From Candidatus Microthrix parvicella Bio17-1 (GTDB lineage Bacteria; Actinomycetota; Acidimicrobiia; Acidimicrobiales; Microtrichaceae): a stretch of DNA of 64,000 nucleotides. Of the stretch, positions 2,211 through 4,171 are shown one piece after another. The stretch is taken from NCBI RefSeq assembly GCF_000299415.1, contig NZ_AMPG01000006.1, positions 62,001 through 126,000 on the forward strand, read 5' to 3'. A model generated the notes under the pieces. It saw only the letters and a program-made list of their open reading frames with translations, made no database searches and was not told the origin of the DNA. The position numbers were made by a program, and so were the translations under genes. Positions within the stretch are counted from its first letter, which is position 1; each line of letters begins with the position of its first letter.

Positions 2211-2659
2211 AGCTCCGGGGAGTCCTCGAAGACCTGATCCCGGTCCTCCTCGATGAGTTCCAAAACCTCCTCGTCGGCGGGCATGACCGCCGGTGCGGCT
2301 TGCTGGTGCGGTTCGACTGCATCTTGCGCCAAAAGGTCGGGCACCTCGGTCAGGCCCAGTTCCTCCCGAACAGAACGCACCACCTCGGCGTCGTCGAGGA
2401 GTCCGGGCTCGAAGTCGTCCTCCAAGACGAAGTACTCGACTGCACCACGCAGAAGTGCACGTTGGTCGTCGTCGAGCTCCTCGGCGTGATCCAGCAGCGC
2501 AGAGATCTGCTTGGCCAACCGGTGGGCACGCGCCGACTCCGGGCTGGCCTCCAATTCGGCCAGTCTGGTGGCGACGCGTTCGCGCAGTTCGGGGATCTGG
2601 GAGACCATCAGGTCATCGGCCAACATCCTGGCTCGGGCGAGTGCAACTTCGGTGGGCAT
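2207..2659 (-). CDS. Conserved-looking acidic protein of unknown function
   Basis: The 150-aa product begins MPTEVALARARMLADDLMVS. I do not recognise the family. It is mostly helical by composition. A charged helix (ARAHRLAKQISALLDHAEEL) is followed by RGAVEYFVLEDDFEPGLLDD and then an acidic C-terminal half rich in Glu and Asp that ends FEDSPEL. There is no signal peptide and no membrane segment. The start at 2657-2659 was chosen because the upstream extension of the frame has no protein-like composition. It is the first gene of a two-gene minus-strand operon with the NUDIX-like gene and is divergent from nei. Confidence 0.7.
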   Translation of the reverse strand: MPTEVALARARMLADDLMVSQIPELRERVATRLAELEASPESARAHRLAKQISALLDHAEELDDDQRALLRGAVEYFVLEDDFEPGLLDDAEVVRSVREELGLTEVPDLLAQDAVEPHQQAAPAVMPADEEVLELIEEDRDQVFEDSPEL

Positions 2660-2784
2660 GGGTGCTCCTGAGTCGGGCCACGCGCTGGCCTCAGTGGTAC
2701 CCGCAGTGCGTCCAGCGCATACGGAGATCTCCAGTTTGTCACGACCGAGGTGGCACGCGTCGCTGTTGCGGGCAGTCTGTTGGG

Positions 2785-3570
2785 ATGCCTGAGGGTGACA
2801 CTCTGTACAAGGCGGCTGCGCGCCTCGCCCCGGCACTCGTCGGTCGGGAACTGACGCGGTTCGAGGCCCCCCGGCTGCAGGGCCTTCGGCCGCGTCCGGG
2901 CGAACGGATTGAGTGGGTGAGGTCTCGGGGTAAGCACCTGCTCATCGCATGCGCCGGGGGGCTGGTGGTGGAAACCCACCTGCAGATGGCAGGGACGTGG
3001 CAGCTGGTGCGCACCGGGGACCGGTGGCCACGTCCCGCCCACCTGCTGCGGTGCCGTCTCGATGTCGACGGGTGGCAGGCGTTGTGCTTCTCGGCCCCTC
3101 AGGTCCGTACCTGGCCGGCAGCCGACGTGGACACTCACCGTTCGCCGTTGGCTCACCTGGGGCCGGACCTGTGTCGGGTCGACGCCGACCTGGACGCAGT
3201 CGTGGGGTTGATGTCCCGATTGGTGGGACCGACCGATGTCGTGGGCGACGTCTTGTTGGACCAGCGCATGTTCTGCGGGGTCGGCAACGTCTACCGAAAC
3301 GAGGTGTGTTGGGCTTTGAGGCTGCACCCCACCACGCCGATGACGCAGCTCGACGACCCCATGCGAAAACGCTCGGTGGCAACATCGGCCCGGCAACTTC
3401 GCTCAAACCTGGGCGCCGGGCCGAGGCGGACCGTGCGTGGAGGGCTGGCGGTCTACGACCGGGCCGGGGCACCGTGTCGACGATGCCAGAGTCGCGTCCA
3501 GACGGGTCGCAGCGGCCTCGGTGATCGGGTGACGTTCTGGTGTCCGTCCTGTCAGCCGACACACCGGTAA
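2785..3570 (+). CDS. nei: Formamidopyrimidine/endonuclease VIII-type DNA glycosylase (Nei2-like)
   Basis: The 261-aa protein starts MPEGDTLYKAAARL, giving the catalytic Pro2-Glu3 pair of the Fpg/Nei family in the variant seen in mycobacterial Nei2. SRGKHLL supplies the beta-elimination lysine. The H2TH DNA-binding segment LLDQRMFCGVGNVYRNEV is present, and a C-terminal zinc finger has CRRC and CPSC pairs about 18 residues apart. The enzyme should excise oxidised pyrimidines and nick the abasic site. The open frame extends about 490 bp upstream, but the MPEGD start is fixed by the chemistry, since the processed N-terminal proline is the nucleophile. Confidence 0.93.
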   Translation: MPEGDTLYKAAARLAPALVGRELTRFEAPRLQGLRPRPGERIEWVRSRGKHLLIACAGGLVVETHLQMAGTWQLVRTGDRWPRPAHLLRCRLDVDGWQALCFSAPQVRTWPAADVDTHRSPLAHLGPDLCRVDADLDAVVGLMSRLVGPTDVVGDVLLDQRMFCGVGNVYRNEVCWALRLHPTTPMTQLDDPMRKRSVATSARQLRSNLGAGPRRTVRGGLAVYDRAGAPCRRCQSRVQTGRSGLGDRVTFWCPSCQPTHR

Positions 3571-3595: not shown

Positions 3596-4171
3596 GTGAC
3601 GTACGTGACCGTTGAGGAATCCCGGCCGCTCCGATCGTTGAGGCATCGAGCCGTTTTCGGACTGCTGGCCGTGGGTGCCCTCCTCGTTGCCGGATGCGGG
3701 GGTGGTGATCCCACCGGAGCCGGATCGGCCGCCACCGCCGATCAAGGTGGCGCGCCACTGGCGGATGAGGCGACGAGTTCGTTGCTGCTCACCAAGGTCG
3801 TCGACGGCTCCGAGGTGGCCCTGGGTGACGCGGTGGCAAGCGACCGGCCCACGTTGCTGTGGTTTTGGGCACCGCATTGACCGGCGTGTCGGGCTGAGGC
3901 GCCCGAGATCGAGCAGTTGGCTCGAGATCATGGGAATGAGTTGAAGGTGGTGGGGTTGGGCACCCAGGACAGCCTCCCGGAGGCCAAAGAGTTCCAGGAG
4001 GAGTTCAACATCAGCTCCACCGAGCTCCTTTGGGAGGACGGGTTCGATTCGTGGCAGGCCTTGGGTATCAGCGCCCAGCCGGCCGGCATCCTGCTCGACG
4101 CCGATGGCGAGGTGGTGCGGTCGTGGCAGGGGCCGGTGCCGCCTGACGAGGTGCTGGCCGCCCTGGCCTGA
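3596..4171 (+). CDS. Thioredoxin-fold (DsbE/TlpA/MPT53-like) lipoprotein with in-frame TGA, probable selenocysteine
   Basis: One continuous frame from GTG 3596 to the stop at 4171 would encode 191 residues if the TGA at 3878-3880 is read through. Residues about 22-38 form a lipoprotein signal ending LLVAGCGGG. The active site reads FWAP-H-(TGA)-PAC-RAEAPE, so the TGA sits exactly at the first cysteine of CxxC (residue 95), with Cys98 as partner. After it the fold continues with KVVGLGTQD, a GISAQPAGILLD strand carrying the cis-proline, and a closing DGEVV strand. The downstream half has protein-like composition in the same frame. A SECIS-like hairpin starts 9 bases after the TGA. The expected product is an extracytoplasmic thiol(selenol) oxidoreductase. 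The alternative is a nonsense mutation or sequencing error at that codon. Confidence 0.8.
3889..3906 (+). promoter_or_regulatory. Candidate bacterial SECIS hairpin
   Basis: TCGGGC at 3889-3894 and GCCCGA at 3901-3906 form a perfect 6-bp stem around the six-base loop TGAGGC. The loop begins 15 nt after the in-frame TGA (3878-3880), and its second base is G. Known bacterial SECIS elements lie just downstream of the UGA within the coding sequence and have a short stem and a small G-containing apical loop; this one is at the near end of the usual distance. No sel genes are in the window. Confidence 0.5.

Follow-up and report, generated by a model that had tools for sequence, protein, structure and literature searches.

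The gene at positions 3596-4171 of the window (the whole 64-kb stretch of DNA analysed here) seems at first to be cut short by a stop codon, but it is almost certainly intact, with this codon translated as selenocysteine (Sec); many related bacteria, most of them uncultured, have it too. Judged from its sequence and from those of its relatives, it very probably encodes a selenoprotein of the DsbF/ResA type. A previous sequence-only reading had proposed a probable new selenoprotein at this place, and for this gene the proposal appears right, on the combined grounds of the sel genes, the TGA/Cys column in homologues and the SECIS hairpin. A broader picture can be drawn, to which I give about even chances: the gene would belong to a predicted exported, lipid-anchored family ('Sec-DsbF') with its own conserved SECIS, found in 19 family codes of one actinobacterial order (Acidimicrobiales, to judge by the titles of matching records), with scattered members in the rest of the phylum, frequently as tandem copies, and for which I found no curated model. 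On this view Sec would be ancestral in the family, with several later changes to Cys, mostly in genomes that lack the Sec machinery; the family would also be a main user of Sec besides SelD and would provide these bacteria with redox chemistry based on selenium on the outer side of the membrane.

The frame, whose coordinates were confirmed, encodes 191 residues if the TGA is translated, and the TGA at 3878-3880 is its sole interruption. In the read-through protein, a lipoprotein-type signal (LLVAGC) is followed by a linker and by a thioredoxin-like domain with the active site FWAPH-U-PAC, and the translation bears out that the TGA occupies the first position of the CxxC motif. The 96 further residues and the proline in the cis-Pro position (SAQPAG) that had been described are present, as is the lipobox behind the lipoprotein claim, from which lipid anchoring is predicted; LVAGC with Cys34 has the form of a lipobox. 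The features are listed in Table 1.

Table 1: Features of the recoded gene and its surroundings, in window coordinates.
Feature	Position	Strand	Basis or remark
ORF with Fapy-DNA glycosylase (MutM/Nei type) domains, upstream neighbour outside the system	2293-3570	+	Pfam on the window's ORF
Whole gene: predicted exported redoxin/TlpA-like oxidoreductase, TGA as putative Sec, 191 residues	3596-4171	+	GTG start at 3596 assumed
Predicted lipoprotein signal peptide	3596-3694	+	hydrophobic stretch FGLLAVGALLVAG preceding Cys34
Cys34, predicted to be lipid-anchored, lipobox LVAGC	3695-3697	+	sequence motif
TGA, putative selenocysteine, residue 95, nucleophilic position of UxxC	3878-3880	+	homologue column, selA co-occurrence
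Cys98 codon, resolving residue of UPAC	3887-3889	+	invariant column in alignment A3 (45 proteins)
Hairpin of the sequence-only reading, 6 bp, 6-base loop, possible but unconserved as a structure	3889-3906	+	pairing counts, fold
SECIS hairpin TCGAGC-AGTTG-GCTCGA, loop 3915-3919, G at loop position 2, then U	3909-3925	+	covariation
Pro162, cis-proline position of the thioredoxin fold (SAQPAG)	4079-4081	+	sequence, A3 alignment

The intact frame had also been taken to make a chance nonsense mutation unlikely. This part of the argument does not hold by itself, since the window is GC-rich and contains 74 TGAs with 90 or more open codons both before and after them, so that openness around a TGA is weak evidence alone; two of these 74, TGA 3878 included, lie in a UxxC or CxxU setting. 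What does hold is that the TGA column is kept in homologues, and it is homology, not the openness of the frame, that I regard as the decisive evidence for recoding.

Among the loci fetched, the active-site column contains TGA in 74 distinct genes (this one included) and Cys in 13, a ratio that is not a frequency because TGA rows were favoured when the loci were selected. These genes derive from 95 candidate sites, of which 87 are distinct after removal of identical DNA; L097, L117 and L262 stand outside the 74, as they were missed by the regular expressions, but a looser one finds TGA in the same motif. The half of the gene past the TGA shows no degradation, with 94-117 open residues in 86 of the 87 distinct sites and 218 in the last (L049). 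One homologous match (L264, in G237) carries one TGA and one TAG and gave no countable site; it is possibly a degraded copy. In several families, TGA genes occur as tandem copies ∼0.6-1.7 kb apart (L056, L057, L058, L060, L061, L069-L075, L053/L098, L106), and in family f35 the C-terminal half of one tandem copy is, by eye, often altered. The cis-proline is missing in some relatives, for instance L086, L103, L104, L110, L111 and L114, which retain UxxC and have NS replacing QP at this position; such members possibly have a different substrate or function.

Within the family, all 33 genomes have a thioredoxin-like match at E 0.001, and five (G000, G001, G002, G013 and G020) have selA. In 30 family loci, the active-site TGA is found in the gene itself, in G002 (FWAPYULSC) and in G001 (FWAPWUSFC), while the others read have Cys; the TGA in the G003 match is simply the stop that ends the frame, and G005 has one more TGA row according to the match listing, its codon column being unread. 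In the order, represented by 397 genomes, the family is matched in 135 at 1e-14 and selA in 236 at 1e-20 (232 above the cut-off). Among the 108 genomes with a best row listed, 94 have one in-frame TGA and 14 have none, the same-column TGA having been read directly for the fetched loci and the call resting in other genomes on one in-frame TGA within the match; the other 27 of the 135 are unclassed for TGA, including G001, which is of the TGA type by its locus. The 94 TGA-type genomes are spread over 19 family codes, where the codes listed run up to f59, and the expectation that such a protein would be unusual for this group does not survive, given one in-frame TGA in at least 94 of 397 genomes of the order.

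The TGA form follows the Sec machinery: selA is matched in 91 of the 94 TGA-type genomes versus 2 of the 14 others (Fisher p 1.4e-11, uncorrected for relatedness). The TGA-type genomes without a selA match are G197, G320 and G392 (83, 93 and 73% complete), while G013 and G020 keep selA despite Cys in this protein (L020, L021, L076, L077). A rapidly built tree with 72 TGA and 13 Cys rows (85 in all) requires 4 state changes and has the Cys rows nested among the TGA rows. The tree has a midpoint root only and 33 of its 82 inner branches are weak, so that an older Sec and a derived Cys are suggested by it at most.

The genome around the window (4.2 Mb, 13 contigs, 95% complete) contains selA, selB, selD and tRNA-Sec, all above their cut-offs. 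The tRNA-Sec scores 67.8 bits against a cut-off of 47, with anticodon tca (ARAGORN), and selA (394.5 bits) and selB (262.6 bits) lie side by side on contig C4. The selB open frame has 630 codons, and the profile aligned only at positions 2-342 of 581, for which reason the SECIS-binding part of SelB went unrecognised. These calls are limited to matches above the cut-off; at E 0.001, the tRNA-Sec, selB and selD searches match 14 of 14 control genomes, and above the cut-off they match 5, 2 and 2 of the 14, respectively. The selD gene (345.6 bits; L254, G000:C3:23101-24048) itself has one in-frame TGA, at locus positions 1531-1533, in HGAGUACKLG, so that a second gene of the genome appears to use Sec and SelD is probably also a selenoprotein here. 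SelD is tabled with a UxxK motif in the accessible part of PMC13188914, and the TGA of this selD sits at that U.

A covariance model of the hairpin region (R1), run against this genome, returned the gene itself as top match (63 bits), as it must by construction because the model includes the gene's own sequence. Of 13 further matches (E 0.014 and up), the seven inspected (L121-L124, L127, L130, L133) include no convincing in-frame TGA gene, so that no third selenoprotein was found by this model. In the 64-kb window, neither an Rfam scan at gathering thresholds nor ARAGORN gave matches, and PADLOC gave none.

Evidence for a SECIS element comes from a gap-free alignment of 63 distinct TGA segments, each starting with the TGA and 54 bases long; its columns 32-37 pair with 43-48, corresponding to 3909-3914 and 3920-3925 of the window. 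In this helix 93.9% of the 378 cells are paired. Two-sided changes occur in 4 of the 6 pairs, a number reached in 1 of 500 shuffles, and counted by cell there are 16 such changes, where shuffling gives 1.7 on average and none of 500 shuffles reaches 16. Slid versions of the helix pair in 14.6-43.9% of cells. The shuffles ignore relatedness while the slid controls preserve it, and the helix has an advantage over the slid controls because it was picked on these same sequences. All six pairs form in 50 of the 63 segments, five in 9, and two or three in 4 (L033, L094, L118, L119); the loop reads (A/G)GTTN in 59 segments, and its G is invariant in all 63. Among the 13 Cys homologues, pairing at these columns is 32.1%, the level of shuffled sequences, and the hairpin is absent.

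The sequence-only reading had described another structure, a 6-bp stem with a 6-base loop at the ninth base past the TGA, and had proposed a search for a bacterial SECIS in the region. The stem exists, at 3889-3906, but is not a conserved element, and the bacterial-type SECIS that was found is a different hairpin, starting 20 bases further on. As a SECIS candidate the former was rejected: it is paired in 57.9% of cells over the 63 TGA segments, versus 59.5% in a neighbouring register, and does not appear in the minimum-energy structure predicted for the 54-nt segment of the window itself.

The hairpin at 3909-3925 agrees in geometry (6 bp, 5-base loop AGTTG, 34 bases past the TGA) with the bacterial SECIS model given in the accessible part of PMC13188914, which has a loop of 3-9 bases, a stem of 4-16 bp, a G in the first two loop positions, a distance of 16-37 bases past the UGA and a limit of -7.5 kcal/mol. 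For the 54 nt of the window that begin with the TGA, the minimum-energy fold has -23.6 kcal/mol (z -2.36; 5 of 200 shuffles do as well) and contains the hairpin. RNAalifold on all 63 TGA segments gives a weak consensus (-1.23 kcal/mol, 4 of 6 pairs), maybe because four divergent rows misfit the hairpin.

I also scanned GTDB genomes with the DNA pattern TGA-N6-TGY-N6-GAR-N12-GAGCAGTTNGCTC, in which nothing upstream of the TGA is fixed, and obtained at least 133 matches in at least 120 stretches. Among the 133 matches listed, 132 lie in frame in the UxxC motif of the family (123 by regular expression, 9 by eye); the exception, L178, is titled Acetobacteraceae and is not recognisably of the family. 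Among the 80 of 120 stretches with titles listed, and excluding L178, the names are those of Acidimicrobi- taxa, Ilumatobacter or its family, actinobacteria, an unnamed bacterium and Ferrithrix, presumably an acidimicrobiid. At 4 of the 123 regular-expression sites there are just 3, 24, 51 and 75 open residues past the TGA, before a stop or the end of the locus. The TGA followed by GAGCAGTTNGCTC forms a SECIS signature able to find more members. Among 396 genomes sampled from the phylum, the family is matched in 17 at 1e-16; 10 of the 17 are outside the order, and five of these have a TGA row. The TGA is within a UxxC motif in all four of the five that were read (L259, L261, L262, L263), the fifth being G563, and L261 retains the hairpin stem, with C-G replacing A-U.

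These results bear on the simplest alternative, in which the TGA either arose by nonsense mutation from a Cys codon, in what is now a pseudogene, or is a sequencing error at one base. A single base separates TGA from TGC or TGT, TGAs in open frames are common across the window, and a degraded-looking relative exists in L264, but an accident of this kind would have to recur at the same codon in 74 distinct genes with an open downstream half, would not account for a covarying hairpin that TGA genes have and Cys genes lack, nor for a TGA form that tracks selA, and I consider it extremely improbable. UGA can also be misread in bacteria, so the codon could be thought of as a leaky stop read as Trp, Cys or another residue, or as the end of a deliberate short product, with no selenium involved. 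The position of the TGA at the redox site, its co-occurrence with the Sec machinery and the SECIS, and the presence of Cys as the replacement in the homologues read make this highly improbable too.

With the TGA taken as Sec, SelB would bring Sec-tRNA to the UGA at 3878, guided by the hairpin at 3909-3925, and the product would be a lipoprotein of 191 residues, presumably exported and anchored outside the cytoplasmic membrane. Exported proteins or small oxidants may be the substrates of thiol-disulfide (selenenylsulfide) exchange at its UxxC pair, with electrons most likely supplied by a CcdA/DsbD-type membrane transporter. The genome has four DsbD_TM/CcdA matches above the cut-off, none of which adjoins the gene, and no VKOR match at E 0.001, where the control search matches 3 of 14 genomes, Corynebacterium glutamicum included. 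Sec chemistry favours fast reduction and resistance to over-oxidation, and an Se-S bond is usually more reducing than an S-S bond. On these grounds I favour an extracytoplasmic protein that is fed by CcdA and acts as a reductant or in repair, a role that seems somewhat more probable than that of an oxidant, with the direction of electron flow itself being presumptive.

As an oxidant, the selenoprotein would introduce disulfides into exported proteins, like DsbE/DsbF of M. tuberculosis, and be re-oxidised by a DsbB-like or other partner. The same absence of a VKOR match, the four CcdA/DsbD-type matches and the reducing character generally expected of an Se-S bond count against this possibility, which I hold to be a serious though minority one. 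It draws its strength from the nearest solved relatives by sequence (3ios, 1lu4): according to the accessible part of PMC3853704, M. tuberculosis DsbE and DsbF oxidised hirudin in vitro but failed to reduce insulin, a result that speaks against a reductant role here, and DsbD-like proteins are their presumed partners. A main role as a peroxidase-like surface scavenger (Redoxin/Prx-like) is unlikely for the selenoprotein. Its best family matches are indeed Redoxin and AhpC-TSA of Pfam, and PrxQ and Tpx chains are among its structural neighbours, but DsbF, DsbE and ResA are ranked first by both sequence profile and structure, and its Sec is in a UxxC motif, versus the TxxU tabled for peroxiredoxin in the accessible part of PMC13188914.

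The gene had been placed next to respiratory genes, which is not the case: its neighbours are the glycosylase-domain ORF upstream and, downstream, a sugar transferase and then a melibiase, and the four NADH dehydrogenase genes tested are ∼23-34 kb away. An ORF of the same BLAST cluster as the upstream one is adjacent to the homologue in G002 (L099) and ∼2.6 kb off in G065 (L087). Elsewhere, genes for gcvT, a MerR regulator, a bifunctional nuclease, an FHA protein or chorismate synthase are near the homologue in 5 or 6 of 21 stretches; such neighbour ORF clusters each occur in 4 to 6 stretches, and Pfam was run on one representative per cluster. This setting was noted in several families, at L081, L084, L088 and L090-L093. 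The recurrent neighbours point to no pathway, suggesting a conserved place without a clear functional link.

Standard gene calling takes the TGA as the end of such genes and thereby drops the active site, and the protein, which many actinobacterial genomes carry, is therefore probably missed or split in databases. The gene shows where these bacteria may spend selenium, and its relatives offer naturally occurring swaps between Sec and Cys that follow the Sec machinery. Ilumatobacter nonamiensis YM16-303 (L207), which encodes the family, is named as a strain and carries no 'MAG' label, so that direct tests would be possible if it can be obtained. In the literature search, which covers few subscription papers, the family is unnamed in the titles and abstract starts among the matches listed, and 'selenoprotein(s)' gave no match together with Microthrix or Ilumatobacter and two papers together with Acidimicrobi-.

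By Pfam, the protein matches Redoxin (PF08534) at 45.3 bits (cut-off 26.6), AhpC-TSA at 36.5 (cut-off 26) and others; 17 NCBIfam models match up to E 0.1, none at its cut-off. The predicted structure of residues 35-191 has a mean pLDDT of 90.8 and a pTM of 0.83. The best PDB relatives by sequence are M. tuberculosis DsbF (3ios, E 3.1e-16) and DsbE (1lu4, 6.4e-13), and the two are nearest by profile, by single sequence and by Foldseek; VIA-align gives a tie between 1st9 (ResA, Z 18.6), 3ios (18.6) and 1lu4 (18.5). The model thus supports a ResA/TlpA-type fold, closest in sequence to actinobacterial DsbF/DsbE.

Among known systems, DsbF and DsbE/MPT53 of M. tuberculosis likewise consist of a single thioredoxin-like domain, with 26-30% identity to the protein here in structural alignments, and DsbF has Cys (WFWAPWCPTC) where this protein would have Sec. 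Its best match among solved structures and its single domain place it with DsbF/DsbE, and its lipobox suggests that it is exported. The group of Bacillus ResA, CcmG/DsbE and TlpA shares the fold (Z 16.7-18.6 for ResA and CcmG chains), and these ResA and CcmG chains are 15-26% identical to it. TIGR00385 (dsbE/CcmG, NCBIfam) matches 43 of the 45 members of A3 at E 0.001; the protein here scores 38.9 bits, below the cut-off of 123.15. NF041054 ('ResA-like WAxxUGC') describes by its name a ResA-like protein with Sec, as proposed here, but its name gives a different active-site motif, and the score is 18.1 bits versus a cut-off of 300. NF047660 (HUIPC thioredoxin-like selenoprotein) is absent from the NCBIfam matches up to E 0.1, in a library that may lack the model.

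The closest description is found in the accessible part of PMC13188914, whose Table 1 has a 'Redoxin family protein' with PF08534 and UxxC (representative HEU0032618.1). This is probably the 'Prx-like 3, pfam08534, UxxC' listed, next to 'Trx-like 1, COG0526', in the available part of a 2008 ocean survey (PMC2398784), as the shared reference and Pfam family suggest. The protein here has both PF08534 and UxxC (HUPAC), a likeness at the level of Pfam family and motif; the lipoprotein form, the likeness to DsbF and the present SECIS are not mentioned for that protein in the accessible part of PMC13188914. Since UxxC redoxin selenoproteins are already catalogued there, the gene would be a new and widespread addition to an existing class.
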